Source: Terebella lapidaria
Taxonomy: Eukaryota; Annelida; Polychaeta; Terebellida; Terebellidae
NCBI GenBank assembly: GCA_949152475.1
Contig: OX424555.1
Span: 57,827,977 to 57,891,976 of the forward strand
Length of the DNA stretch: 64,000 nt
Direction of reading: 5' to 3'
The notes beneath the pieces were generated by a model. It had not been told where the DNA came from. It did not search any database and saw only the letters and a program-made list of their open reading frames with translations. Position numbers and translations under genes: made by a program. Positions 4,980-47,073 of this stretch are shown piece by piece (the first letter of the stretch is position 1; each line of letters begins with the position of its first letter).

Positions 4980-5715
4980 CTACACCCGTCTCGTATGTAG
5001 AGGTTAATTTACACATTTCACTTTTGAAATGGCCCTTTTTTCGTCAAATAAACTGCAACCATTTCGAAATTTCGAGAAAAAATGGGAAAATAAAAAGCTC
5101 CTCTCTATAGGACTTCCTATATGCCCATAATAAGCCCTACATGCGTTTTGTCTGCAGAGGGCAATCCACACATTTCAGGTCAAACGTGATCTTGAGATTA
5201 CGACTCAAGGTATTCTGAAGCCAACTTCAACGTAATCAAAAGATCCAACACATATGACTTCCTTATATGCTCACAAAATACAAACCTGAGCACTACCTGC
5301 AAGCGTTGTGTCTACAGGGGTCATTTACATATTTCAGCTTAGACGTGACCTTGAATCTTGGGGTCGAAGTCAAGGTCACCAATAGATCCATCATGCATGA
5401 CTTCTTATAATATATTCCTAAGCTCTCTCTACAAGAATAATGTCTGCACGTGCCAATCTACACATTCCAGGTTAAATGTGACCTTATACTTGATGTCAAG
5501 TTCCAGGTCACCAATAGATCCATCATGCGTGGCTTCTTATGCTCTATGACAAAATAGGTTATATGCCCTATCTACAAGAATAATGCCTGCATGGCTAATT
5601 TAGGAGGACGAGGTTGCTCTTGTGTCTGGCTGACATTTCAGGTCAGACGTGACCTTGAGGTTTAAAGTCACCAAAAGATTCCCAATAATTATTTAACTTC
5701 CTATATGTTCGTAAT
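4980..5715. repeat. AGGTCA-rich degenerate tandem array, left part
   Basis: About four degenerate copies (134-171 bp apart, anchored on CACATTTCAGG near 5168, 5327, 5461, 5632). Each copy carries AGGTCA/TGACCT half-sites, several arranged as AGGTCA-n4-TGACCT (for example 5640-5655) and TCAAGGTCA (5370-5378). The same family is at 10431-10830 and 20860-21690. The LINE is inserted at its right end. Confidence 0.75.
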
Positions 5716-6959
5716 ATGCTCACCCCGGTGGAGCAGTCACGACACAACCTGCTATTACCAGTTTCTTCCACAGCACTCCAAACGTAGATCCTGTAAAAAA
5801 GAGGAAAGCGAACTCTCCGTTGATGATACCCGAGATGTCCGATGACAGCTGGTCCGATGATATTCTGGGAGTGAAGAACGCTGTTACTTCTAAAATGAAT
5901 GACCTTTCTGGGACAATCAACCGTTTGATCGACAACGCTAAACAGGATATGTTAGGCCACATAACCAATCTCGAAAAGAAACTGGACCAAATGAACGAGA
6001 CCTTACAAAATCAGGAAGAAAAAATAAATGATTTGACTGACGAAAACACGCTCTTGAAGAATCGATCAGAACTTCTTGAAGGCAGAATAACTCGCGCCGA
6101 AAAACTGATAGAAGACTTGCGTGAAGACTCACTCTCCATTCAAGCGCGCGGAATGAGGGACAACATAGTTTTTCAAAACATTCCCGAGTTCGCTAACGAA
6201 AACTTGATACAAATACTCAACGACTTCCTCAAGTCCAAAATGAATATCCCCGAAAACGAGATGGAAAAAATACATCTTCTGCGAGCACACAGGATGGGGA
6301 AAGCTGGCAGCTACACCCGCCCAATCGTCGCACGCTTTGAACATGAAAGTGTCTATATCGTCATGAAACACACCAGAATTCTGAAAAACACACAATATGG
6401 GGTAAATGTCCAACTACCGAGAGAACTCGCAGAGCGCAGTAGGCAGCTCCTGCCTATTTCGAAACAGGCAAAGGACGCAAACAAGAAGATAGTGTGGAAG
6501 AAGGACAGGCTATTTGTCGACGATGAAGAACACAAAATTCACAGTGATCGCGCTGTCGGACTCAATGACTCTGGAATCATGGATAAAGCAGTAACAACCA
6601 AAGTTTATCGGTCACCACCAAAAGTGTACAACGGAAGTAGATTTCAAGGCTCGAAAATCAAAGTGCTCTCACAGCAAGATGTGCTGCCATCACTCCATGC
6701 GTTTTATCGAGATTCCCGTGTGGCATCGGCGACGCATAATATTTATGCCTACCGCATCCAAACACCCGATGGACTGTTTGAACATCACGAGGACGATGGC
6801 GAGTACGGAGCTGGGCGAAGGATTCTGAAGAAACTCCAGGACAAGGGCGAGCAGGACGTATTAGTGTGTGTCACGCGATGGTTCGGGGGAAAGGAACTGG
6901 GATCGGCCAGGTTCGGTCACATCGAGGAGGCTGTGGAGGATACACTGTCGTTAAACTGA
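5715..6959 (+). CDS. LINE ORF1p: PIP box, NLS, coiled coil, RNA-binding core and C-terminal IMPACT domain
   Basis: One uninterrupted frame. The first ATG is at 5823 (378 aa), but the frame is open from 5715 and the upstream 36 codons look coding, so the true start is probably lost. In order: QPAITSFF (5745-5768), fitting a PCNA-interacting PIP box; the basic run KKRK; a long coiled coil (about residues 20-100 from the ATG); an L1-ORF1-like core with DNIVFQNIPE and a C-terminal domain ending near residue 240; then an IMPACT/UPF0029 domain (about 265-375) with IYAYRI, EDDGEYGAG (from 323) and RWFGGKELG (from 352). L1-type ORF1 proteins bind element RNA as trimers. IMPACT proteins in eukaryotes bind GCN1 and restrain GCN2. 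The fusion is read directly from the sequence; its function is inference. Confidence 0.85.
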   Translation, partial: YAHPGGAVTTQPAITSFFHSTPNVDPVKKRKANSPLMIPEMSDDSWSDDILGVKNAVTSKMNDLSGTINRLIDNAKQDMLGHITNLEKKLDQMNETLQNQEEKINDLTDENTLLKNRSELLEGRITRAEKLIEDLREDSLSIQARGMRDNIVFQNIPEFANENLIQILNDFLKSKMNIPENEMEKIHLLRAHRMGKAGSYTRPIVARFEHESVYIVMKHTRILKNTQYGVNVQLPRELAERSRQLLPISKQAKDANKKIVWKKDRLFVDDEEHKIHSDRAVGLNDSGIMDKAVTTKVYRSPPKVYNGSRFQGSKIKVLSQQDVLPSLHAFYRDSRVASATHNIYAYRIQTPDGLFEHHEDDGEYGAGRRILKKLQDKGEQDVLVCVTRWFGGKELGSARFGHIEEAVEDTLSLN

Positions 6960-7097
6960 GCTGTCGATGAACTGAACTGTCTCACTGTATGATAGATTTC
7001 ATGTAATTTGGGTTGAGTAGATACGTTTACATTCTCTATTGATTATATGTATTTTGCATTTGACCTGTTTTTGTCTCTGTCTATGCACTATACGAAT

Positions 7098-10000
7098 GTA
7101 TGTATCAACGATGTTTGCTATACAGGTAGAGCTATATTGCACTTGTCTCCGTCTTCGTTGTTGTTGGTTGTTGTTATTGTCTTTGTCTTTAACCATACAC
7201 ACACCATTAGGTACATCATGCACTCATCATTTCATTCGCAAATCTGGTAAAAACAACGTATATCGATATATTTGGATTCAAAACCATGCCATACGTAGCA
7301 CGGCATACATGTATATCTACATTTTACTACATATAGTTGCCTTATTAATGAACAGGTGTGGCGACATCCACCCGAATCCTGGTCCAGTAACACTGTCATT
7401 CTGTCACACTAATATTAGAGGAATCATTATTAAAACAGCGGACGACCCCATGTATAAAGCTGACGAACTGTATGGGGACCTTTGTATATCTCAAGCCTTT
7501 GACTTTATCTGCATTAGTGAAACGCACTTAAAGAATGATACTGATTTGAGCTCTGTGCCCTTTCCCGCTGATGAGTACGTATTCTACAGAAGGGATAGAA
7601 ATTAACGCAAGGGGGGGGGGGGGGGGGTATCCTTGGGACTACTAAATTGTACCATACACAGATCCACGAACTCTCCCATCCCCGACTCGAAAATCTATGG
7701 ATTGAAATTAATGCTTCGAGCAAAACCATATTGTTGGGCGTCATTTATAGGCCCCCGAATACCAATAGTCATGAAACAGATCAATTTATTAGTGTCTTCT
7801 ATGATAATATACATGATGCTATTAATCGAAAACATGACGGTATTTTCTTACTGGGAGATCTTAATGACCGCTGTGACTCTTGGGACTCTGATCACTCGAG
7901 AAGTGACTTGGGAAACAAGTTAGTCAATCTAATTAATATGTATTTTAAACAGCTTATAAATGAACCTACGCATGTCACGGACCAATGCGCGTCACTTTTA
8001 GATTTGATAATCACTGATCCTCCGGGTTTTGTCACTGATTCTGGCGTTATGAACCCGATTTCGGATACTGATCATTGCACCGTATACTGCAAAACAAAAT
8101 TTGATTATATACGGGACAAACCTTATAGTAGACGCATTTATAATTATAATCGCGCAAATTTCGAACGGATGAATAGTGACATTTTGCAGTCACCCCTGAA
8201 CACGTTATTATATGCGGTTGAAGATGTCGATGATGCCGCTCAGATCTGGTACGATATAAGTCAAGAGAATATTGATATGAATATCCCCTCCCATACTGTC
8301 ACCATAAGACCACGTGACAAACCCTGGATGACGGGTGAATCACGGACACTCTTGCGGAAAAGAAATAGATTTCATAAGAAGTTCAAACGTACGAGGCGAG
8401 AACGTGATGAACAGTATTGGAAGAATAGTCGTAGTCATGTTAAGAATGCGATCATATGTGCAAAAAAGCGGTATTTTGAAGGTTTGTACATGTACCTGCA
8501 ATTGAGTAACCCTGCCACTGCCCCAAAACAATATTGGCGTATAGCAAAAGCGCTTTATGGAGTGAAGAAAATAGCACCGATACCACCAATCTTAGAACAA
8601 AATACAATTTATTCAACAGCTTCTGAGAAGTGTGAAATATTCAACAAATATTTTGTGTCTCAAACTAACTTGGACATTCACGCTAACCAGTTACCACAGG
8701 TTATTTGTGAAACACAAGAACGTCTAGATATGATCTCAACTACAGAAATGGAAGTGGCAAATATATTGAAACATCTAAACACTAATAAAACTACCGGCCC
8801 TGATAACATCAGTAATCGATTATTGAAAAGCTGTGCAGAATCAATTGCTGTGCCACTATGTATATTATTCAATATGTCGTTCAGAAATGGGAAAGTTCCT
8901 TCCGTTTGGAAAGTAGCAAATGTTTCCCCAGTTCACAAAAAGGGAGATACATCAACTTTGACTAATTATAGACCCGTCTCTTTGCTTTCATGTGTCGGAA
9001 AAATTCAGGAGAAAATCGTTTTTAGTCGTCTGTATGATTTTTGCACCAAACACAATTTATTAACATGGAGAAATTCAGGTTTTAAAAAACTCGATTCTGC
9101 CATATATCAGTTACTAAATATCACCCATAAAGTGAATATTGACTTAGAGCAAGGCAAAGACCTGTGTCTAGTTTTCCTTGATATTAGCCAGGCGTTTGAC
9201 AGAGTTTGGCACGATGGATTAATCTATAAACTTGAATGTAAGGGGATAACTGGGGAATTACTCGAATGGTTCCGTTCATATTTAACCGATCGTAAACAAA
9301 GGGTGGTAATCAATGGAAAAGGTCTAATTATTTAAAATTAACTGCTGGGGTACCGCAGGGCTATATTCTTGGCCCTCTTTTGTTTTTAATTTTCATAAAT
9401 GATATAGTTGATAACATCAAATCCGATATTTACTTGTTCGCTGACGACACTTTCTTGTACAAGAACATCAATTCTATACGGGACTATGAAATAATAAATG
9501 ACGACTTGAGTAAATTATCTCTATGGTCGCAGAAATGGCTGGTATCTTTCAACCCCCAGAAGACCGAATATATCAATATATCTCGCAAACAACGCAAACC
9601 TGCTGAGATACCCCTTGTGCTGAATGAAGTCCAAATAAATAAAGTCAATATACATAAACATTTGGGGATTATATTTAATGACAAGGGCACTTGGACCGAT
9701 CATATTTTACACTTGTACTTGAAAGCCTCAAGATCAGTTGGACTATTACGTCGGGTGCAGTATAGCGTTCCGTGAATGTGTTTAGAAACGTTATTCAAAT
9801 CATTTATCCGACCTATAATAGAATACGGTGATGTTATTTTTGATGGATCTCCGAAAACTTACTTGAAAGAATTGGATTGCATCCAGAGAGAATGTGCGCT
9901 AATATGTACAGGTGCCTATAAACACACAGCTCAAAGTGCCTTACTGAGTGAACTGGGTTGGGATCGAGCCTCTAGAATTGAGACGGGAAAATCATCGACT

Positions 10001-10425
10001 AATTATTATGTATAAAATACAGAACGGCCTTGCACCTGACTATTTATCTAATCAATGCACCCAATCAACGAGCGACACTGTACCATATCAATTGAGGAAT
10101 AGCCAGTGATTACGCACTTATAGAAATAAAACTACACAGCTAAAAAATTCGTTTTTTCCTAATACTGTCGTTGATTGGAATAATCTGAACTCGAATATAA
10201 GAACATCTCAGATACTCTCAATTTTCAAGTCTAGACTCAAACCGAATAAATATAAATGTAATAAGCTATATTGCCATGGGACTAGTAGACACGGGAGGGT
10301 AAACCACACCAGACTTCGACTTGGGCTAAGTGGGCTAAATAAACATAGATATAACTTTAAATTTATTGAGTCTGACAAATGTCCACACTGTATAGATATA
10401 TGTGAAGATACATCATGGCATTGAG
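7098..10425 (+). pseudogene. LINE ORF2: 2A-like peptide, APE endonuclease, reverse transcriptase (broken)
   Basis: The frame starts in a hydrophobic N-terminal stretch (ATG at 7098, perhaps not the true start), reaches the 2A-like motif at 7360-7386, then the endonuclease: CHTNIRGI, DFICISETHL, GVIYRPPNT, LLGDLNDR and TDHC. RT motifs follow: NKTTGPDNIS, NYRPVSLLSCVGKI, FLDISQAFDRVWHDG, GVPQG..ILGPLLF and the catalytic LFADD (about 9440). Breaks: TAA at 7603-7605, a 17-base G run at 7611-7627 with frame change, a one-base frameshift near 9323, TGA at 9773-9775, a further shift near 9985 and a stop near 10108. The C-terminal Cys/His region ends at CPHCIDICEDTSWH. The RT catalytic box is intact, so decay looks recent. 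Confidence 0.85.
7339..7386 (+). other. 2A-like ribosome-skipping motif in ORF2
   Basis: The frame encodes a hydrophobic run ending ALLMNRCGDIHPNPGP. The tail matches the 2A consensus D-(V/I)-E-x-N-P-G-P except His for Glu. 2A-like sequences at this position are known in APE-type LINEs of invertebrates. The skip would occur between the Gly at 7381-7383 and the Pro at 7384-7386, releasing the hydrophobic leader from the endonuclease-RT. Activity of the His variant is not certain. Confidence 0.65.
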
Positions 10426-12558: not shown

Positions 12559-15500
12559 ATGGCAGATGTCGAACAAGTGGAGGAAGTAGAGGAAACCATG
12601 GATGACAACATGGCGGGGGAGGGAGCAGCTGTCGTGGCGATAGAAAACTCCAGTCCAGAGATCATCCATGTCATGAGTTCCCCCGTCGGTGTGTCAAGTT
12701 CATCACAAGACTTGGGCAGTGCACAGGTGGTCGGGTTTTCAAACTTTGGCAGTACCGGACAGAGTCAAACTATCACAATCAGTGCCGGGGGAATGAACTT
12801 CCCAATGACGTTGCCAGCAGCTCAAGCACATTTGGTGAGCTCCGTGTAATGATAACTACATACTGTGTTGAAAGAACAAATTGAAAACCAGATTTAAATG
12901 ATAAAGGTGTTTCTTTCCGAAGGAGTTTCTTGACAAATCACTAATCTCGCAGTGACATATCTCTGAGTTGTATATTGATTGAAAAAAGAACTTTAGAAAT
13001 TTAATACAGTATTTAATATGATATTCCCATCTTTGCAAAACTACAGCTCAACAGTGCGAGTAGTTCGGATGGCGCGACTTTCCCCAGTCAGATCCTGATG
13101 GGCAGTGGTGATCTCTCTCAGAAGCTGAAAACTCTCAGCCAAGGACAGGTCTCCAGTGTCGGGATACTAGATGTGGCAGCTAAGCTGAAGGTACGATTCA
13201 AAAACAAAATATTTTGAATTGCATCTCAGGTACAGAATGTTTCTTGTATGTGTACTTCTCTTTGGCAGTTCGCCAAGTGGTACAAATATAAACTTTTGCT
13301 TGATAGGAAGAGCAGTGGACAGCTCAACAGCCTGTGTTATTGTCACAATCAGAGGTCAGAATATATCAATGACCTCAGTTTGTTAACTAGTAATAATATC
13401 AATGTGTTTTTGTCATAAACCATGTCGAGTGTTTAAAATAAACTGAACTGGTAAAATCTGTGTGGGAGATTTATTGCACATTTTACACAATATTGCTAAC
13501 ACTTAAGCAGAGTGTTATTTGAATAAAACAAAAGTTGTACAATTGAATTGCACATTAATTTTTTGAAAAAATCACTGCATTTGACTGTTAACACTTTTGG
13601 TGTACTCCTGTAGTATCGTAGCACTCCTGCGATCAATGCTTGTCATGTCATTCGCCATTTTTGGAAACCATTATTTCCTTTTGAAAAATAGTACTACATA
13701 GTCCTTTTTCAAATATTAGTAATATCTTTGTACTTGTATTTGAGACTTGTACAGTTGGGCAGTCAATGATGACAAACATTTTATCTTTGGCAGGAGCTGC
13801 AGGCTCAGCCTCCGTGTCGTCCTCATGTTCTGGAGAAGATCTGGGAGGAGTGTGTGGTCTGCGGAGATCGAGCATCTGGTATGTTGGATTACAACGTTTT
13901 TGAACTATCATCAAGGTTCATAATGGTTTCGATATGTGCTAGGAAATGCCTAATTGTGGCTTGAAAAGGAGAGCAGAAGTAACTTGGTATAGGACAGTGT
14001 TATATCGTGTGCCATGTCAAAAATGTCCAATGAATTGATTCCAGGTCGGCACTATGGAGTCATCAGCTGTGAGGGTTGTAAAGGCTTCTTCAAAAGGAGC
14101 ATCCGTAAGCAGCTTGGGTACGCTTGTCGTGGAAGCAAGGACTGTCCAATCACAAAACACTATCGCAATCGGTGTCAGTACTGTCGATTACAGAAGTGTC
14201 TGGCTGTGGGCATGAAGTCTGAAGGTAATTATTGTAATTATATGTCTTCTCAACTTTATACATAGTTTTGCATGAAGAGATGATAATATTATCTTGTTGG
14301 CTTGCTTAGGGATGTTTGATCTCTTTCAAAGCAAATAATATTTACCATATTGGTCCTAATAGTAGCACGGCGAGCCAAAGCAAGACCTCCTGCAGCAGCG
14401 CGCGCAAAAATGAGGTCAAACTTGAGATCAAATTTAGGAAAATCACTGAATAATATACCTTTAGCCTTTAATCCCCTTTATTCAGATTCAAATAACATGA
14501 ATGTGTGGATTGGAACACTCCAAGATCTTATTAGAAAGATATTAAGTAAATTATAAGGTTACTAAAATCGAACATTTTTTGGCAAAAGAGGGGGGTGCTC
14601 TACTATTAGGGCACAAGCCACTATTAGGACCAATATGTTATTCGATATGTTGTACCAGTATTATATTGACTAGTGATGCATCATGCCTTTATCTGAACCT
14701 AATATTTTTTTTCAACTGGACACCCCCCAGCTGTACAGCAGGAGAGGCGACCCACGGAAATGAAGGAGCGACCACCACAGCCCATAGCAACCTCAACACA
14801 GCGTATCTACGTCAGAAAGGACCTGGGAAGCTCTGCCGCAGCCATGCCTGCTTTCTCTGGCAAGGTAATAAAGACACTGGAAAAATAATATATAAGTTGT
14901 AACGTGTGCAACTTATTTGAGAGTGACTAATGAAATAGGGATACATATACATTGGAAATGTCTGGTTCACAGGAAAGGCTGTCAGAAAGCTTGCTATCAA
15001 ACTTACAAGAAAGACTCGTCCAGACGGAGGAAGGCTCAATCGTCCTGGGAGCTAACGCTAATAGCGCACAAAATACAGGTACACCATTTGTTCTGTAACA
15101 TGAAATAAATTCATAGTTATTTCATCCAATGTGAATACATGTTTAGATATATTAGGGCATCTTGAATGTAAGTTCAGAAAAGTCATAGTCAAATGTATAG
15201 AGACAAATTTTCCAAGAATAAAACGTAAAGGACAAAACCTGTGAGTGTCACAAAGTTTCTTAGAAACAATTTCTGATTTAAACCAAATTTAATCACTGCA
15301 GACCTGAGCACACTTGCGAATGTTGTCACCACTCTGGCTACAATGGACAAGGGTAAGTCCCAGAAGAAGGCATTGAACACAGCCAACGGTGACGGTCTGC
15401 AGGATGTCCAGGTCGGAAACTCAGCGGCCAGGGCCTTCGACACACTGGCCAAGGTCATCCAACCCAGAGTCGACAATGCCATGCATGGGGTGAGTCACGA

Positions 15501-17382
15501 CATATATATGATGGCTTTGCTATGGATATTCCATTATGCTTTGTGAATATAGGTGAATTGTATACATAATATATTATGTTAATATGTTGATTTTCCTTGA
15601 TTTTAAGTGCGAGGATTCGGAAGACCAAGACCAGTCAACAACATCAGACTCACAGGACAAGTCCATCTTCATGGAATATGATGGTGGGTAAACGAAAATA
15701 CTAGTAGTTCAAAACTCTATTGAAATACAAACATTTCGAGCAATGTCATGCTCTTTAAATATTCAATCATGAATGTTTGGTTCACATCACTAAACGACGG
15801 TCATAAGCCTTCATTCAAAGCAAATGCTATTCCTATTCCAGGTCCGATGTTGACTGAGATGAACTACCAGTTCACGTTGTCGACGCCCTCCCCGCTCCCC
15901 GCCTTTCTGAACGTGCACTACATCTGTGAGACTGCCTCGAGGCTACTGTTCCTCTCCATGCACTGGGCTAAAGCCGTCGCTCCGTTCCAGATAATCAAGT
16001 ATGCTTGTTGATGAATTATGAAGTTCACCTCAAAAGCATTTGTCTGTCCTAAAAACACATCTACTTATAGAAATAATCATGAAATTGGACCTGTTGAACC
16101 ATGTGAATATTAAGACTCCCCCCCCCCCCTCATCAAATTGAATAAACTGAGACAATTACATAATATTGAAATTACTAGTAATACAATTTTAGAAGCAGTT
16201 CCACTAGTTCAAACACTGATTCATCAACTATATGATCATGATGGTGCATGGACTTTGCTGATTAGCCTTTATTACCTCTTTGACAGCCCAGACTTGCAGA
16301 TTCAGTTGGTGCGAGCGTGCTGGAGTGAGCTGTTTGCTCTGGGGTTGGCTCAGTGTGCGGGCACAATGAGTCTCTCTACCATCCTAGCAGCCATCGTACA
16401 TCACTTACAGACCAACCTTGAACAGGGTAAGCCACTGACTGATTAATTATCGTGTTCTGTTCTACTTGAATTCTATTAGCTTGATTTTGTGTACTTTTTG
16501 CTCGCTTGATTGATAGAATTAGGAGGCTGTTTGTGGGTCTGGCTTTTGGTGTATTGTAATATCACAGATGAAACCTAAACAATTTGGTAGTGAGCGTTGG
16601 TTTTCTTGTTTATGAATTCTTCACTTTCTAACCACAGAAAAGTTACAAACAGACCACGTGAAGGTTGTGACGGACACAATAATGCGGCTACAGGATTACG
16701 TCAGTGCCACAACACAGATGAAAATCAGTGCTACTGAGTTCGCCTACCTGAAGGCAATGGTCCTCTTCAGTCCAGGTCAGTATATGGGGATTCACCTGGG
16801 TTTACCAGTAAAGATTGACTTTTCAGACTTTGACACAACAAATCATTAGTAACCAAACTTAGTTTGCATTATGACAAATCTTGACCAGCAAATTTGTATA
16901 CCACAGATCACTTGCCTTCTGAACACGGGCAGATCGAGATTTTCCAGCAGAGAGCTTGTATTGAGTTGAAAGAATACCTAGAGCAGACCTATGAGGGTGA
17001 CTGGCTCGCCCGCTACTCTAAAATGCTGCTGCGATTGCCCGCCTTGCGAAACCTCGACCCACTCATCATGGAGGAGCTGTTCTTCGCGGGACTGATCGGC
17101 AACGTTCAGATTGACAGTATAATTCCCTACATTCTTCGTATGGAGACGGCCGAGTATTCGTCCCACATGGGCGTCATTGACTCAGTACTCTCGCCCCCCG
17201 AGGCGTCAACACCCGAGCCGAATTTCAGCGAGAGCCAAGCAGCGTTTATCATCAGTCCACTGGAGTCAGAGTCAACACCGACGCTGAGTCACCTGATCAC
17301 AACCAATCACACACCCACGTCGGATTCGCTGATCACCGTTGACTCCCATAACAGCATCACCATCGTCTCACAAGACAGTTGA
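12559..17382 (+). CDS. NR2C: TR2/TR4-type orphan nuclear receptor (NR2C), 13 coding exons, 715 aa
   Basis: Coding exons: 12559-12834, 13047-13190, 13307-13354, 13794-13878, 14045-14224, 14731-14864, 14973-15078, 15302-15489, 15608-15683, 15842-15998, 16287-16426, 16638-16775, 16907-17382. All introns are GT-AG, phases agree, and the total is 2148 nt. The ATG at 12559 has an in-frame TGA upstream. The DNA-binding domain starts at Cys176: zinc 1 C176/C179/C193/C196 with P-box CEGCKG, zinc 2 C212/C218/C228/C231. A hinge with QQERRP and IYVRKDL, then DLSTLANVV and AFDTLAK, are NR2C hallmarks. The ligand-binding domain (about 413-645) has [46 protein letters not shown] and [14 protein letters not shown]2C receptors bind AGGTCA direct repeats in the nucleus and mostly repress transcription. 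The protein is longer than vertebrate TR4 (about 600 aa) owing to a long N-terminus and a Ser/Thr/Pro-rich tail (about 648-715). The short exon 3 uses a weak donor (GTCAGA). Confidence 0.93.
14346..14637. mobile_element. MITE in NR2C intron 5
   Basis: The terminal inverted repeats are CATATTGGTCCTAATAGT at 14346-14363 and its exact complement at 14620-14637. A second ACTATTAGGGC motif lies just inside. A 292-bp non-autonomous element within an intron; the frame it contains is not NR2C coding sequence. Confidence 0.6.
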
Positions 17383-28250: not shown

Positions 28251-29735
28251 TGTTTCTTGTATGTTGCATGTGTTTGCTTGGAGGTTTGTATTGAGAATGG
28301 TTATCTATGTTTTTGCATGTTGCATGTGTTTGCCTGGAGTTTCGCATGTTGCATGTTTATGTGTTGTGCTTGTAGGTGCATAGGTTTGCCTGGAGTTTCG
28401 CATATTGCATGTTTATTTCTTGTGCTTGCATGTTGCATGGGTTTGCCTGGAGTTTCACATGTTGCATGTTTATGTCTTGTGCTTGCATGTTGCATGTGTT
28501 TGCCTGGAGTTTCGCATGCTGCATGTTTATATCTTGTGCTTGCATGTTGCACGTGTTTGCCTGGAGTTTGCATATTGCATGTTCTTGTCTTGTGCTTGCA
28601 TGCTGCATGTGTTTGCCTGGAGTTTCGCATGTTGCAGGTGTTTATGTCTTGTGCTTGCATGTTGCATGTGTTTGCCTGGAGTTTCGCATGTTGCATGTTT
28701 ATGTCTTGTGCTTGTATGTTGCATGTGTTTGCCTGGACTTTTGCATATTGCATGTTTATGTCTTGTGCTTGCATATTGCATGTGTTTGCCTGGAGTTTTG
28801 CATATTGCATGTTTATGCCTTTTGCTTGCATGTTGCATGTGTTTGCCTGGAGTTTCGCATGCTGCATGTTTATATCTTGTGCTTGCATGTTGCACGTGTT
28901 TGCCTGGAGTTTGCATATTGCGTGTTTTTGTCTTGTGCTTGCATGCTGCATGTGTTTGCCTGGAGTTTCGCATATTGCAAGTTTATGTCTTGTGCTTGCA
29001 TATTGCATGTGTTTGCCTGGAGTTTTGCATATTGCATGTTTATGTCTTGTGATTGCATGTTGCATGTGTTTGCCTGGAGTTTTGCATATTGCATGTTTAT
29101 ATCTTGTGCTTGCATATTGCATGTGTTTGCCTGGAGATTTGCATGATGCATGTTATATGTCTTGTGCTTGCATGTTGCATGTGTTTGCCTGGAGTTTTGC
29201 ATATTGCATGTTTATGTCTTGTGATTGCATGTTGCATGTGTTTGCCTGGAGATTTGCATGATGCATGTTTATGTCTTGTGCTCGCATGTTGCATGTGTTT
29301 GCCTGGAGTTTTGCATGATGCATGTTATATGTCTTGTGCTTGTATGTTGCATGTGTTTGCCTGGAGTTTTGCATATTGCATGTTTATGTCTTGTGCTTGC
29401 ATGTTGCATGTGTTTACCTGGAAATTTGCATGTTGCATGTTTATGTCTTGTGCTTGCATGTTGCATGTGTTTGCCTGGAGTTTTGCATATTGCATGTTCA
29501 TGTCTTGTGCTTGCATATTGCATGTGTTTGCCTGGAGATTTCCATGATGCATGTTTATGTCTTGTATTTGCATGTTGCATGTGTTTACCTGAAGTTTTGC
29601 ATGTTGCATGTTTATGTCTTGTGCTTGCATGTTGGATGTGTTTGTCTGGAGTTTTGCATATTGCATGTTTATGTCTTGTGCCTGCATGTTGCATATGTGT
29701 GCCTGGAGTTTTGCATGTTGAATGTTCATGTCTTG
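28250..29735. repeat. 57-bp TGCATG minisatellite, array A1 (about 26 units)
   Basis: The unit is about 57 bp and built from GCTTGCATGTTGCATG, TGTTTGCCTGGAGTTTTG, CATATTGCATG and TTTATGTCTTGT. Variants change GTTTTG to GTTTCG and ATATTG to ATGTTG or ATGATG. A block at 28500-28640 recurs about 340 bp later (six units), showing higher-order duplication. All long reading frames here (up to 339 codons, both strands) arise because 57 is divisible by 3. Confidence 0.9.
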
Positions 29736-29737
29736 TT

Positions 29738-30324
29738 GGCCCTTTGGGCCGATAAGCTATTATAGTGGTTTTTCGTCCGTCGTCCGTCGTTCGTCCGTTG
29801 TCCGTCCGTTTTTTTGGCATGTTGAATTTCCCCATAAATTTGTCAGAACATACCTTAGGCCAATATGTGAAGGTTTTTTAAATTTTTTTGATTGAATCAT
29901 TTTTGGCGATTTGGCGGCCATTTTTGACGAAAAATTGCCAATTTTGGACTTTGGTGGCAATTTTTTAAAAACTGTCTGATCAGTTATGAGATTTTTGTTT
30001 CAAAACAATCTTCTCATGTACATCTATGACGTGTATAAGTTTCGTTGCCCTTGAATCGCCGGTCTGCGTGTGGCGGCCATATTTATTTTTTGACGGGTCG
30101 GCGGAAAATTTTTTTTGGTCCCAAATCGAGTCACTATTCGTTTTGAGCCATTTCTTGCGAAAAAAACATTTTTTTTTGGCCATTGAAAATTTTACTCAAT
30201 TATTCCTTCATAATGGGAGCTGTGCGGAGTAAACTCATAGAACACTTCACGATAGAGCCTAAGTATTTTCACATTCAAATGGGAAATCATATCTTGCAGT
30301 TTGAATGGTGACCTTGGGCTAATT
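29738..30324 (+). repeat. FamB copy 1
   Basis: Starts with hairpin GGCCC-TTT-GGGCC (29738-29750), then GATAAGCTATTATAG, a (CGTCCGT)-rich leader, TTTTTGGCATGTTGAATTTC, and a body with GGCGGCCATTTTTGACG. It ends in CTTGGGCTAATTTT just before array A2. Nearly identical to 40842-41400. Confidence 0.75.
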
Positions 30325-31011
30325 TTGCTTGCATGTTGCATGTGTTTGCCTGGAGTTTTGCAAATTGCATGTTTATGTTTTGTGCTTGCATGTTGCATGT
30401 GTTTACCTGGAGATTTGCATGTTGCATGTTTATGTCTTGTGCTTGCATGTTGCATGTGTTTGCCTGGAGTTTTGCATATTGCATGTTCATGTCTTGTGCT
30501 TGCATATTGCATGTGTTTGCCTGGAGATTTCCATGATGCATGTTTATGTCTTGTATTTGCATGCTGCATGTGTTTACCTGATTTTTGAATGAGCTGCGTT
30601 TAAGAAATTCTATGGACGTCATCATGATCTGGTTGATAAATACAGCAAATCCATATCTGCCATGCAACTAGATCTATTTTCATGTTAATTTTGGGGAATT
30701 CATGACGGGTGCCACTAGTGGGGCAGGAAATGCTCACTCTTTCCGGAACACCTGATTTCACCTCCTAATGGCCATTTACGGGGGTTCATGAGTTTCCCTG
30801 TCATTTTTGTTTTCTCTCACTTCGTATGCCTGATATGACTTTTTGTCCCCGGATTATGAGATTGGATAACGGACCCTGTTTTGTTTGCTCGGAATACTTA
30901 ATACTGGGTATTGATTCCACGTCTATTTGCATGTTGCATGTTTATGTCTTGTGCTTGCATGTTGCATATGTGTGCCTGGAGTTTTGCATGTTGAATGTTC
31001 ATGTCTTGTTA
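30325..31011. repeat. Minisatellite array A2, interrupted by an RT-element 3' fragment
   Basis: 57-bp units occupy 30325-30581 and 30924-31011. They match array A5 (40441-40843) closely. Relative to A5, about 90 bp of array are missing where the 30582-30923 fragment is inserted. Confidence 0.8.
30582..30923 (+). pseudogene. 3' end of an RT-type retroelement (inverted partial copy of 47931-48216)
   Basis: 30594-30687 encodes AAFKKFYGRHHDLVDKYS ending DLFSC*, the same C-terminus as the minus-strand fragment at 48163. It is followed by about 235 bp of shared 3' sequence ending TTGATTCCACGTCTA. Inserted within the minisatellite. Confidence 0.7.
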
Positions 31012-31845
31012 GCCCTTTGGGCCGATAAGCTATTATAGTGGTTTTTCGTCCATTGTCTGTCGTTCGTCCGTCGTCCGTCCACTTTTTTGTCATGTTGAAT
31101 TTCTCCATAAATTTGTCAGAACATACCTTAGGCCAATATGTAAAGACGCTTTTTAATTTTTTTTGATTGAATCATTTTTGCTGAAGTATTTTCACATTCA
31201 AATGGGAAATCATATATTGCAGTTTGAATGGTGACCTTGAATTTGACCTTCAATGACCTTCAAAATCTATTTAGACAGTTTTACTCAAAATCATGTGTCA
31301 GATTCTCCTTAAGTACCTTTGTGATGTGTATAAGTTTTGTTGCCTTTGAAATGACGGTCTGCGTGTGGCAGCCATTTTGATTTTTTGACAGGTAGGCGAA
31401 AAAATTTTTTTGGTCCAAAATCAAGTCAATATTCGTTTTGAGCCATTTCCAGCAAAAAAAATGTTTTTTTTCTGGCCATTGAAATTTTTTTTGGACTTTT
31501 CACCAAAAAAAATTTCACCCAAATTTTTCCTTCATAATGGGATTTTTGCGGGGCAAACTCCTAGAGCACTTTAAGATAGAACCGAAGTATTGGCACATTC
31601 AAATGGGAAATCATATATTGCGATTTGAATGGTGACCTTGGATATGGTCTTGGAAGGCCAAAGCGAGTTTTTTTGTCGAAGGAAACAATGATTTTTGTCT
31701 TTGGTTGCCATTTTCTCAAAATCTATTCAGACAATTTTCCGCGAAATACATAATATTTTCCCTATGTACCTTTGTGATGTGTATAAGTTTCGATGCCTTT
31801 GAATTGATGGTCTGTGAAAATATGTCATTAACGAAAAAATCTTTC
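31012..31845 (+). repeat. FamB copy 2
   Basis: Starts GCCC-TTT-GGGC (31012-31022), with the CGTCCGTCGTCCGTCC leader and a body matching 40842-42010, but with an internal deletion near 31185. Three spaced TGACCT half-sites lie around 31232-31260. It ends at the start of array A3. Confidence 0.75.
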
Positions 31846-32570
31846 AAGTTGCATGTGTTTGCCTGGAGTTTTGCATATTGCATGTTTATTTCTTGTGCTT
31901 GCATGTTGCATGGGTTTGCCTGGAGTTTCACATGTTGCATGTTTATGTCTTGTGCTTGCATGTTGCATGTGTTTTGCCTGGAGTTTCGCATGCTGCATGT
32001 TTATATCTTGTGCTTGCATGTTGCACGTGTTTGCCTGGAGTTTTCATATTGCGTGTTTTTGTCTTGTGCTTGCATGCTGCATGTGTTTGCCTGGAGTTTC
32101 GCATATTGCAAGTTTATGTCTTGTGCTTGCATATTGCATGTGTTTGCCTGGAGTTTTGCATGATGCATGTTAAATGTCTTGTGCTTGCATGTGGCATGTG
32201 TTTGCCTGGAGTTTTGCATATTGCATGTTTATATCTTGTGCTTGCATATTGCATGTGTTTTGCCTGGAGTTTCGCATGCTGCATGTTTATATCTTGTGCG
32301 TGCATGTTGCACGTGTGTGCCTGGAGTTTGCATATTGCATGTTCATGTCTTGTGCTTGCATATTGCATGTTTGCCCGGAGATTTGCATGATGCATGTTTA
32401 TGTCTTGTGCTTGCATGTTGCATCTGTTTGCCTGGAATTTTGCATATCGCATGATTATGTCTTGTGCTTGCATATTGCATGTTTTTGCCTGGAGTTTTGC
32501 ATATTGCATGTTTATGCCTTTTGCTTGCATGTTGCATGTGTTTGCCTGGAGTTTTGCATATTGCATGTTT
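31846..32570. repeat. Minisatellite array A3 (about 13 units)
   Basis: 57-bp units. The stretch at 31985-32125 has the same order of variants as 28855-29000 in A1 (CATGCTGCATGTTTATATC, GCACGTG, GCGTGTTTTTG), so A3 derives from A1 or from a common parent by segmental duplication. Confidence 0.85.
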
Positions 32571-33310
32571 GTGTGTGTTGCTGTTATAAAGTAACTAACC
32601 GACTGGGATTTAACCTTGGTTTATTTAAAAATATAATTATTTAAATTATAATATACAAACATAATGAAGTTGAGGTAGTTACAATAAAATGAGTTACAAT
32701 GAGAAATAAGACATAATTATTGGAAATGGGTTATGACTAACAATTACCATGATATGTGGGTAAATAACACAAATATGAACGACAAAAATCAGAACCTAAG
32801 GCTGACACGCGTTCACAGTAAATACGATCTACCGTACATAATGATACATGGAAGAAACATAGTACACAAACTGAAAAAAGATACATTAGACATAATTCTA
32901 AAATAGTACAATAACACATAATATAGGAAAGTGAAGAAATACAAGATAAGATTATATTTTGAATATAACGGAGAAACAACACGAGATTACATGACAATGA
33001 AATGATATGGTATATAGTACTATAGTATACAACAGTACTTGTATGTAAATAATATTGACAAGGAAAAAGGGTGGGTTGGGTGGGAAAATTGAAAGGAAAA
33101 CAACCTCGAGGAGCTTCTAGTCGAAAAGAGAGATTGTCATTGGTTGAATAATCAGGTAACGTTGTCAAGGGATACCAATTCTACATAAAATGCGGACTGT
33201 AGAAATTAGAAGAACGGATAAAAAGGCGGGAATGATAACCTTGGGGATAGACTACCGGCACGCTAACACACACAAACCCGTTTGTAGCCTGCGTCCACAA
33301 ACTGATTATT
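32571..33310 (+). mobile_element. Element T, copy 2: 740-bp internally deleted form
   Basis: The left 241 bp (to GCTGACACGCG at 32811) match the start of copy 3, and about 225 bp at the right (33085-33310) match its end (38865-39091). The middle is missing or replaced. It abuts copy 3 with no intervening base. Confidence 0.75.
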
Positions 33311-38864: not shown

Positions 38865-39091
38865 AAAAATTGAAAGGAAAACAACCTCGAGGAGCTTCTA
38901 GTCGAAAAGAGAGATTGTCATTGGTTGAATAATCAGGTAACGTTGTCAAGGGATACCAATTCTACATAAAATGCGGACTGTAGAAATTAGAAGAACGGAT
39001 AAAAAGGCGGGAATGATAACCTTGGGGATAGACTACCGGCACGCTAACACACACAAACCCGTTTGTAGCCTGCGTCCACAAACTGATTATT

Positions 39092-39271
39092 ATATCATGT
39101 TCTTGCACATTGCATGTTTTTGCCTGGAGATTTGCATGATGCATGTTATATGTCTGGTGTTTGTATGTTGCATGTGTTTGCCTGGACTTTTGCATATTGC
39201 ATGTTTATGTCTTGTGCTTGCATATTGCATTTGTTTGCCTGGAAATTTGCATGATGCATGTTTATGTCTCG
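39092..39271. repeat. Minisatellite array A4 (about 3 units)
   Basis: Resumes the 57-bp repeat directly after element T (CATTGCATG, TTTTTGCCTGGAGATTTG) and runs into a FamA 5' hairpin. Confidence 0.8.
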
Positions 39272-40440
39272 TTAGGTTATCGGACCTTTGGTCTGATAAC
39301 CTATTGCCATGGTGTTGCGTTCGTTGTCTGTCGTCCGTCCGTTCCTCCACACTTTTATCATTGAACTTTACAGTCGAATATTTCTGAAATTTTGCACAAA
39401 AATACCTAAAAATATTTCCAGAGAAGATTTTTATTTTAGTTTTCTGATTTTCGCATTTTTTCCAAAATGGCGGCCACTTTCGACGAAAAATGTCTGATTT
39501 CGGACTTTGGCGGCTATTTTCTCAAAATCTGTTCAGTAACTTATTTTCTTATTGAAGCATATCACACCTCATAAAATTATGATCCCATATGATGTGTATA
39601 AGTATCGTATCGCTTGAATTGCTCGAAGTGGGACACTCTGGTTCCAAACTCGGCCCGAATGGGACTTTCCCATGTCAAATTCTCCTATGCTTTATAATGG
39701 GGCACATGTTTCCAAATATCTCACCTAATATTGAGACTAGAGATTAAGAATCAATTGTGGACATATATGAAATGATATATGCTGAATATTCTCGTGACCT
39801 TGAATTTGACCTTTTACCTCATTTTCAAGGTCACAGGACTAAATGGCTAGTATCTTGCTTATTATCGACTTTACAGCTTATGAAACAATTGTGAACATGA
39901 AGGAAATATATTCTGAATATTCTCATGATCTTGAATTTGACCTTTAACCTGACTTTCAAGTTCAGTCCCCTTATTTTCAAGGTCAGAATACAAAAGAAGC
40001 TTATATCTCGCTTATTATCGAATTTACAGCTTATGAGTCCACAGTGAACATATAGGAAATGACGTATGCTGAATATTTTGGTGATCTAGAATTTGACCTT
40101 TGACCCCATTTTAAAGGTCAGAGAACAAAATGGCTAATATCTCGCTTATTATTGACTTTACAGCTTAGGAATCAATTGCGAATATAGAGGAAATGATATA
40201 TACTGAATAATTTCATGACCTTGAACTTAAACTTTGAGCTGATTTTCAAGGTCACATCAAAGAATGGCTAACGACTTACAGCTTAGGAATCTATTGTGGA
40301 CATACTAGAAATGATATCTTTGTTGAATATTTCATGGCCTTGAATTCATTAATGACTTTATTTTCAAGGTCACTGGACAAAAGGATAATATTCAAAATGT
40401 ATATTGTCCGGTAACCTCTCTTAGCCCTTGGGCTAATTTT
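39272..40440 (+). repeat. FamA copy, apparently full length
   Basis: The 5' hairpin GGTTATCGGACC-TTT-GGTCTGATAACC (39275-39301) is followed by the GTTGCGTTCG/CGTCCGTCC leader, the body, about five ~125-bp subrepeats with TGACCTTGAATTTGACCTTT and TCAAGGTCA (39825-39833 and others), and the 3' end CTTAGCCCTTGGGCTAA. No coding capacity. Confidence 0.8.
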
Positions 40441-40843
40441 GCTTGCATGTTGCATGTGTTTGCCTGGAGTTTTGCAAATTGCATGTTTATGTTTTGTGCT
40501 TGCATGTTGTATGTGTTTACCTGGAGATTTGCATGTTGCACGTTTATGTCTTGTGCTTGCATGTTGCATGTGTTTGCCTGGAGTTTTGCATATTGCATGT
40601 TCGTGTCTTGTGCTTGCATATTGCATGTGTTTGCCTGGAGATTTCCATGATGCATGTTTATGTCTTGTATTTGCATGCTGCATGTGTTTACCTGAAGTTT
40701 TGCATGTTACATGTTTATGTCTTGTGCTTGCATGTTAGATGTGTTTGCCTGGAGGTTTGCATATTGCATGTTTATGTCTTGTGCCTGCATGTTGCATATG
40801 TGTGCCTGGAGTTTTGCGTGTTGAATGTTCATGTCTTGTTAGC
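40441..40843. repeat. Minisatellite array A5 (about 7 units)
   Basis: Starts right after a FamA 3' end (GGGCTAATTTTGC|TTGCATG) and ends at the FamB 5' hairpin. Paralogous to A2. Confidence 0.85.
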
Positions 40844-44764: not shown

Positions 44765-47073
44765 CTATGTTTTTTGTATGTTGCATGTGTTTGCTTGGGG
44801 GTTTGTATTGAGCATGGTTATGTCTTGTGTTTGCATATTGCATGTGTTTGCCTGAAGATTCGCATGTTGCACGTTTATGTCTTGTGCTTGTCTGTTGCAT
44901 TGTTTACTTTTAGTTTTTCATGTTGCATGTTTATGTCTTGTGCTTGTATGTTACATGTGTTTGCCTGGAGTTTTACATATTGCATGTTTATGTCTTGTGC
45001 TTGCATGTTGCATGTGTTTGCCTGGAGTTTTGCATATTGCATGTTTATGTCTTGTGCTTGCATGTTGCATGTGTTTGCCTGGAGTTTCGCATGTTGCATG
45101 TTTATGTCTTGTGCTTGCATGTTGCATGTGTTTGCCTGGAGTTTCGCATACTGCATGTTTATGTCTTGTGCTTGCATGTTGCATGTGTTTGCCTGGAGTT
45201 TCGCATGTTGCATGTTTATGTCTTGTGCTTGTATGTTGCATGTGTTTGCCTGGAGTTTCAGATGTTGCATGTTTATGTCTGGTACTTGCACATTGCATGT
45301 GTTTGCCTGGAGTTTGCATGATGCATGTTATATGTCTTGTGCTTCCATGTGGCATGTGTTTGCCTGGAGTTTTGCATGATGCATATCTATGTCTTGTGCT
45401 TGCATATTGCATGTTTGCCTGGAGTTATGCATGATGCATGGTATATGTCTTGTGCTTGCATGTTGCATGTGTTTGCCTCTAGCTTTGCATATTGCATGTG
45501 TTTGCCTGGAGATTTGCATGGTACATGTTTATGTCTTGTGTTTGCATATTGCATGTGTTTGCCTGGAGTTTTGCATATTGCATGTTTATGTCTTGTGCTT
45601 GAATGTTGCATATGTTTGCCTGGAGTTTTGCATGATTCATGGTATATGTCTTGTGCTTGCATGTTGCATGTGTTTGCCCCTAGTTTTGCATTTTACATGT
45701 TTATGTCTTGTGCTTGCATGTGTTTGCCTGGAGATTTCCATGATGCATGTTTGTGTCTTATGCTTGCATATTGCATGTTTATGTCTTGTGCTTGCATATT
45801 GCATGTGTTTGTCTGGAGTTTTGCAGATTGCATGTTTATGTCTTGTGCTTGCATATTGCATGTGTTTGCCTGGAGATTTGCATGATGCATGTTATATCTC
45901 TTGTGCTTGCATGTTGCGTGTGTTTGTCTGGAGTTTTGCATATTGCATGTTTATGTCTTGTGATTGCATGTTGCATGTGTTTGTCTGGAGTTTTGCGTAG
46001 TGCATGTTTATGTCTTGTGCTTGCATATTGCATGTGTTTGCCAGGAGATTTGCATGATGCATGTTATATGTCTTGTGCTTGCATGTTGCGTGTGTTTGTC
46101 TGGAGTTTTGCATAGTGCATGTTTATGTCTTGTGTTTGCATGTTGTATGTGTTTGCCTTTAGTTTTTCATGTTGCATGTTTGTGTGTTGTGCTTGCATGT
46201 TGCATGTGTTTGCCTGGAAGTGTGTTTCTATGTTGCATGTGTTTGCCTGGAGTTTCGCATATTGCATGTTTATGTCTTGTGCTTGCATGTTGCATGTATT
46301 TGCCTGGAGTTTTGCATGATGCATGTTTATTTGTTGTGCTTGCATATTGTATGTGTTTGCCTGGAGTTTTGCATATTGCATGTTTATGTCTTGTTCTTGC
46401 ATGTTGTATTGTTTGCCTGGATTTTTGCATGTTGCATGTTTATGTCGTGTGCTTGTATGTTGCATGTGCTTGCTTGAAGTTTTGCTTGCATGTTGCATGT
46501 GTTTGCCTGGATTTTTGCATGTTGCATATTTATGTCTTGTGATTGCATGTTGCATATGTTTGCCAGGAGTTTTGCATGTTTATGTCTTGTGCTTGTATGT
46601 TGCATGCGTTTGCCTGGAGTTTTGCATATTGCATGTTTATGTCTTGTGCTTACATATTGCATGTATTTGCCTGGAGATTTGCATGATGCATGTTTATGTC
46701 TTGTGCTTGCATGTGTTTGTCTCTAGTTGTGCATATTGCATGTTTATGTCTCGTGCTTACATATTGTATGTGTTTGCCTGGAGATTTTCATGATGTATGT
46801 TTATGTCTTGTGCTTGCATGTTGCATTGTTTGCTTTCAGTTTTTCATGTTGCATGTTTGTGTGTTGTGCTTGCATGTTGCATGTGTTTGCCTGGAAGTGT
46901 GATTCTATGTTGCATGTGTTTGCCTGGAGATTTGCATGTTGCATGTTTATGTCTTGTGCTTGCATGTTGCATGTGTTTACTTGAAGTTTTGCATGTTGCA
47001 TGTTTATGTCTAGTGCTTGCATGTTGCATGTGTTTGCCTGGAAATTTGCATGATGCATGTTTATGTCTTGTTA
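44765..47073. repeat. 57-bp TGCATG minisatellite, array A6 (about 40 units)
   Basis: The longest array. Same unit as A1, with shortened variants (for example 45470-45500, 46560-46580) that break the 3-bp periodicity locally. It runs into a FamA 5' hairpin at 47074. Frames on both strands are artefacts of the unit length. Confidence 0.9.

Follow-up and report, generated by a model that had tools for sequence, protein, structure and literature searches.

The window, a stretch of 64,000 nucleotides from Terebella lapidaria, contains a truncated and decayed copy of a LINE, the features of which are listed in Table 1. Comparison with a sibling copy on a different contig (L031, G000:C17:11256900-11262900) by blastn revealed 98.6% identity over positions 5711-8251 and 98.2% over 8282-10413; by this alignment, the window copy lacks the head of ORF1 and the tail of ORF2, and its ORF2 frame is broken. 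Between the two ORF1s, 12 of 1242 bases are different, with 10 codon changes and 1 silent change, as expected for decaying dead copies. A degenerate tandem array flanks the LINE (5112-5719, resuming from 10449), with units approximately 130-170 bases apart on both sides. Nuclear receptor exons (zf-C4 and Hormone_recep; 13993-14262 and 16885-17379), NR2C/TR4-like by eye, are located 3' of the LINE, and a 57-base tandem repeat forms several separate arrays (28256-32574, 39090-40839, and 44774-47071) in which several reading frames stay open for hundreds of codons.

Table 1. Features of the LINE copy, in positions of the window
Feature	Position	Strand	Evidence
LINE copy, both ends truncated relative to sibling L031	5711..10413	+	blastn to L031
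ORF1 frame, beginning missing, head without start codon in this copy	5715..6959	+	
Coiled coil of ORF1, aa 46-146	5850..6152	+	Single long helix in AF2 model; matches to coiled-coil families and structures
RRM and C-terminal domain (CTD), L1 ORF1p type, aa 147-277	6153..6545	+	
UPF0029/IMPACT ancient domain, aa 307-411	6633..6947	+	
Conserved THNIYAYR block of UPF0029, aa 340-347	6732..6755	+	A339 and H341 in 24/24 rows of alignment A1
Conserved DDGEYGAG block, aa 360-367	6792..6815	+	D361 and G367 in 24/24 rows of A1
Conserved RWFGGKELG block, aa 388-396	6876..6902	+	R388 in 23/23, W389 in 22/23, G396 in 22/23 rows
ORF2, start of endonuclease part, head with GDIHPNPGP motif (2A-like)	7348..7605	+	
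ORF2 in a different frame: endonuclease, then the first half of the reverse transcriptase	7599..9335	+	Pfam RVT_1 E 4.4e-15, Exo_endo_phos_2 E 1.4e-8
ORF2 in a different frame: remaining half of the reverse transcriptase	9296..9775	+	Pfam RVT_1 E 9.4e-12
ORF2, C-terminal part, cut by truncation	10110..10413	+	tblastn to L019, L020, L022, L027, L029; L031 runs further

The sequence-only reading had joined a LINE ORF1 protein to an IMPACT domain, and this observation is confirmed: one unbroken frame runs from an ORF1 of L1 type, with its coiled coil, RRM, and CTD, into a complete UPF0029 domain. The domain matches the Pfam profile UPF0029 (PF01205) with E 4e-24 and 85.1 bits against a curated cut-off of 27, covering profile positions 2-107 of 107, and the motifs THN, DDGE-AG, and RW-GG-LG are all present; the decayed sibling L031, which is outside A1, has R at position 341. 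The L1 ORF1 profile Transposase_22 (PF02994), proposed as a second check, is absent among the 21 Pfam families matching window ORF1 at E <= 1, and by sequence this protein is distant from L1 ORF1p (2ykp, E 0.003 using a profile). A single AlphaFold model of window ORF1 matches human LINE-1 ORF1p structures as well as YigZ and Yih1 structures, and both the UPF0029 fold and the L1 ORF1p-type fold of coiled coil, RRM, and CTD were recognized in it.

Search of the same genome with PF01205 gave 381 candidates, of which 150 were scored; all 150 are above the cut-off, 140 have no stop inside the match, and they are held by frames of at least 300 aa in 111 cases and at least 400 aa in 87. Altogether, 46 of the 150 places were read as sequence (28 loci L003-L030, L031, five loci L032-L036, 11 of the 14 loci L037-L050, and the window). 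The five fetched as short-frame matches that might have been host IMPACT exons (L032-L036) were rejected as such, being truncated LINE copies by eye. With window ORF1 as the genome query, 104 matches were obtained (window included), comprising 77 that span coil/RRM and UPF0029, 7 that stop before UPF0029, and 20 other partials; ORF1s lacking UPF0029 are under-sampled here because the query itself contains the domain. Similarly, the 14 window-type ORF1s of one comparison set were picked for spanning both halves, and thus their having both is no independent evidence.

In the protein collection, the window ORF1 query matched 25 proteins: 23 fusions, an ORF1 lacking UPF0029 (P0023), and an RWD-UPF0029 protein (P0025). 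Further searches of this collection added P0028-P0031, P0026 (lacking UPF0029), and P0027 (fungal). In total, 27 collection proteins match both the RRM and the UPF0029 profile as window-type fusions, none being more than 58% identical to the window protein; these profiles are circular for members of A1, outside which are P0028-P0031 and the loci of the T. lapidaria genome. The 27 fusion proteins probably come from other species, although subfamilies within the one genome differ as much. Nothing was found in IMG/VR, searched with A1 and with an ORF1 of architecture C (see below), or in phage records. The genome-contig collection yielded only bacterial YigZ (L002) and L001, an ORF1 of the same type lacking UPF0029 and adjoining a LINE-like endonuclease ORF on a contig labelled Epulopiscium sp. 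(bacterial single-cell), which is probably host-animal DNA inside a bacterial assembly.

Comparison of the 28 loci L003-L030 revealed three ORF1 architectures that differ in the position of UPF0029. In architecture A, the window type (7 of 28, with L028 in two frames), the order is coil-RRM-CTD-UPF0029 and the domain is C-terminal; in architecture B (10 of 28), the order is PHD-coil-UPF0029-esterase-zinc knuckle; and in architecture C (10 of 28), UPF0029 follows the esterase (PHD-coil-esterase-UPF0029-zinc knuckle). The remaining locus, L030, is too broken for a call. The Pfam domain order was verified on L003, L010, L011, and L023 (B), L007, L008, L013, and L015 (C), and L019 and L029 (A), the other loci being assigned by reading, RRM profile, near-identity, or tree. 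The GDSL esterase was listed in all eight B and C ORF1s scanned, above the curated cut-off in five (L003, L007, L013, L015, and L023). The PHD finger is above the cut-off only in L023, below it in L003, L007, and L013, and unlisted in L008, L010, L011, and L015; some of the PHD-less ORF1s may be 5'-truncated, and L003 also matches PHD structures. Zinc knuckles at the end of the B and C ORF1s were read by eye, with one sub-threshold zf-CCHC match (L015). Just upstream of a B-type ORF1, the reverse strand of L006 (1903-2466) contains a second, divergent UPF0029-like stretch that matches our own profile with E 1.7e-11 and has no Pfam match at E <= 0.01.

The ORF2 proteins of the A elements are 24-28% identical to those of the B and C elements, and B and C are approximately 45% identical to each other. 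UPF0029 therefore belongs to two distantly related LINE lineages and takes three different positions in ORF1. From the look of ORF2, these LINEs are putative members of the Jockey group. The location of the fusion upstream of an endonuclease-RT ORF2 holds both for the window, by Pfam matches on its ORF2 pieces, and for the open ORF2s of L019, L029, and L015. The ORF2 heads of the window (7348-7386) and of L019, L020, L022, L027, L029, and L031 carry a [GE]D[VI]H[PC]NPGP motif, which we assume to resemble 2A.

Among 20 loci with 8 kb of DNA, chosen for UPF0029 alone, 16 have an ORF2 downstream on the same strand; it is doubtful in L026 (at 4.6 kb), and none was found in L024, L028, and L030. 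Both ORFs are open in L019 (458 and 1219 aa), L029 (453 and 1197 aa), and L015 (550 and 1022 aa). The A-type copies L019, L020, and L022 have a common 5' start and a common 3' end with short repeats, and the C copies have a common 3' end and variable 5' ends. Examination of nine elements for target-site duplications gave convincing direct repeats in two, L019 (14 bp) and L022 (11 bp), displaced by 11-12 bases from the aligned 5' start; L020 has an AT-repeat match only, and six C copies have no direct repeats. The carriers are therefore APE-type LINEs, as characterized by ORF2 with AP-type endonuclease and RT, target-site duplications, common 3' ends, and 5' truncation.

A one-off chimaera, an assembly error, or a host IMPACT gene struck by a LINE would agree with the broken and truncated state of the window copy. 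The sequence-only reading itself had named, as grounds against its claim, a missing IMPACT profile match or other copies lacking the domain. What we found is a Pfam match, 150 places in the genome, 77 two-half matches among 104, 27 collection fusions, elements having ORF1 and ORF2 both open, and direct repeats on their flanks; a one-off origin is ruled out by these places, open elements, and two-half matches, and a host IMPACT gene beside the LINE is rejected since the frame is continuous and the copies are dispersed. Explanations of this kind have next to no probability. Recurring at approximately 150 places and in three kinds of ORF1, the domain has become an enduring component of these LINEs and is no accident, and we regard it as practically certain that they are APE-type LINEs whose ORF1 acquired UPF0029 as a lasting module.

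Phylogenetic analysis of the RRM-CTD region separated 33 carriers from 3 non-carriers at 99/86 (95/84 when P0024 is excluded). This split is in keeping with one UPF0029 gain in the A lineage, although the non-carriers are few. UPF0029 itself was analysed in two trees. In the second of these, B and C are united at 100/99, with B alone at 98/94 and C alone at 95/87; in the first, P0024 is placed among the B rows. A single clade of A rows is neither demonstrated nor rejected (p-AU 0.18 in the first tree and 0.50 in the second). The second tree places 55 LINE rows on one side and 3 fungal and 2 bacterial rows on the other (94/83, not starred), and the split between bacterial and eukaryotic rows is supported at 100/98, bacteria being set as outgroup. 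Both UPF0029 trees were built excluding L006b, truncated P0002, P0031, and L030, and the second also excluding P0024 (very long branch), ten near-copies, and L037.

Of the earlier proposal that the element captured a host domain, the capture stands as likely, whereas the donor gene was not found, nor was an animal host IMPACT for comparison. Seven RWD places were detected in the genome, and a comparison of the lists by eye put each of them at least approximately 0.49 Mb away from all 150 UPF0029 places. For six of them (L051-L056), the surrounding 0.6-1.3 kb lack UPF0029 and none is IMPACT-like by eye; the seventh, outside the six places read, has stops inside, and failure to find a host IMPACT does not amount to its absence. 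One of the places, L056 (G000:C1:36063500-36064100), has the RWD domain in a 1722-aa frame with no stops, the N-terminus of which is GCN2-like by eye (0.6 kb read).

The dN/dS check proposed for the IMPACT part was carried out between subfamilies and gave 0.07-0.22 for UPF0029 where computable, mostly at high dS, with most dS values near or past saturation. The B pairs have 0.07-0.10 at dS 1.3-3.5, and 0.16 and 0.22 at dS of approximately 0.2; the C pair L007/L008 has 0.17 at dS 2.3, the B and C pairs given being only those with at least 8 differences. For architecture A, L029/L027 gave 0.13 at dS 2.1, and L038 versus the window gave 0.08 at dS 1.6, the latter in a set where dS falls between 0.1 and 1.8 in only 3 of 230 pairs. 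Single copies decay like dead LINEs, as seen from the changes between the window and L031 and from L018, for which comparison with seven further young C copies yields dN/dS of 0.44-0.78. In 252 of 276 fusion-protein pairs, similarity is higher over UPF0029 than over RRM-CTD (mean 47% vs 39%); this domain evolves slowly everywhere, and thus high similarity alone says little.

The window LINE shares with type II (L1-type) ORF1 systems, known from the L1, CR1, L2, and R1 clades in the available text of PMC4120745 (types of Khazina and Weichenrieder), the same coiled coil, single RRM, and CTD followed by an APE-RT ORF2, and differs from them by the C-terminal UPF0029. Architectures B and C resemble type III/IV ORF1s with PHD or esterase (CR1, L2; PMC4120745) in the GDSL-type esterase, in some cases the PHD finger, and terminal zinc-knuckle-like motifs; they differ by UPF0029 before the esterase in B and after it in C. 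IMPACT and Yih1 have the same UPF0029 ancient domain, and the LINE domain has the eukaryotic spacing of the DDGE-AG motif, whereas the bacterial YigZ family (1vi7, 2cve) has two extra residues in this motif. Unlike IMPACT and Yih1, the LINE protein lacks RWD and has UPF0029 fused to a LINE RNA-binding protein. No description of such a fusion came up among the open-access papers listed (Repbase and subscription papers being outside this search): the terms IMPACT, UPF0029, and YigZ are all absent from the main text of PMC4120745, which covers 448 Jockey-superfamily ORF1s, and none of the open-access papers mentioning UPF0029 has a transposon title.

The step from an IMPACT domain to GCN1 binding and GCN2 inhibition, made in the sequence-only reading, was not supported as stated. 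RWD (PF05773) was not matched by window ORF1 at E <= 1, nor by L031 or 10 other ORF1s at E <= 0.01, and the GCN1-binding part of IMPACT/Yih1 is the N-terminal RWD (PMC4503747, PMC7140605, and PMC6550387, here and below as far as their available text goes). Overexpressed alone, RWD inhibits growth on amino-acid starvation (PMC7140605), and alanine changes in it lower Gcn1 binding and abolish inhibition (PMC4503747). An anti-stress module, in which UPF0029 of ORF1p binds GCN1 or a GCN1-ribosome complex and damps GCN2 such that element RNA is translated under stress, would draw on the inhibition of GCN2 by IMPACT and Yih1 through competition for GCN1 (PMC4503747, PMC7140605, PMC6550387) and on the RWD heading the GCN2-like (by eye) frame in this genome. 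Since the LINE took only the ancient domain and not RWD, the GCN1 pathway is the less likely reading; with no listed UPF0029 place close to an RWD place, we consider it improbable.

Alternatively, the domain may bring ORF1p particles to actin or move them along it. IMPACT/Yih1 need the ancient domain to bind actin, but it is not sufficient (PMC6550387), and the sufficient region overlaps the linker region (PMC4503747), which is absent here; a cytoskeletal tether is thus another unlikely role. That UPF0029 stays merely as part of the ORF1p fold or stability, with no partner of its own, would suit its place after the CTD in the window-type ORF1s read and the separation of carriers from non-carriers in the RRM-CTD tree. 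The kept residues, however, include loop motifs common to YigZ and Yih1, and in B and C the domain occurs in unrelated surroundings, which makes a purely structural passenger rather doubtful.

Our preferred reading, held tentatively and with somewhat less than even confidence, is that UPF0029 serves the ORF1p particle as an accessory module for RNP contacts; the anatomy and this mechanism taken together we judge about as likely right as wrong. As in L1 ORF1p, the coiled coil, RRM, and CTD of the ORF1 protein would bind element RNA, and UPF0029 would hold a conserved cellular partner by the conserved loop face common to YigZ and Yih1, a contact that may aid particle assembly or local translation. 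Such a module need not act via GCN1, since the GCN1-binding RWD was not taken along. The partner would most likely be RNA, or the ribosome where the RNA is translated, and less likely actin. Nucleic-acid binding is shared by most of the known ORF1 modules, and Yih1 also interacts with ribosomes; for these reasons we favour the RNA or ribosome contact. The stretches of Yih1 that suffice for binding ribosomes, actin, and Gcn1 overlap the area around its linker (PMC4503747); LINE ORF1 lacks this area, a point against the ancient domain binding ribosomes by itself. On the ancient domain, the invariant residues lie together on one face of the molecule (PMC4503747), and the function of this domain is called unknown (PMC4503747, PMC7140605, PMC6550387).

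A bolder and improbable reading is that LINE lineages exchanged UPF0029 as a mobile module, or captured it repeatedly, and that it was kept for docking the ORF1p particle on the host translation machinery, locally relieving the stress shut-off. If true, a retrotransposon would carry its own manipulator of the integrated stress response, and this would hint at what the ancient domain itself does.

The known LINE ORF1 modules are few, namely, coiled coil, RRM, CTD, zinc knuckle, PHD, and esterase (PMC4120745, available text). The addition of one from a translation-regulator family, which shows low dN/dS in comparisons of subfamilies and appears in three builds, suggests that the elements described here use a host process not yet linked to LINEs. 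These elements also offer a natural handle on the ancient domain, which is conserved in all kingdoms and is found here free of RWD and beside an RNA-binding protein.
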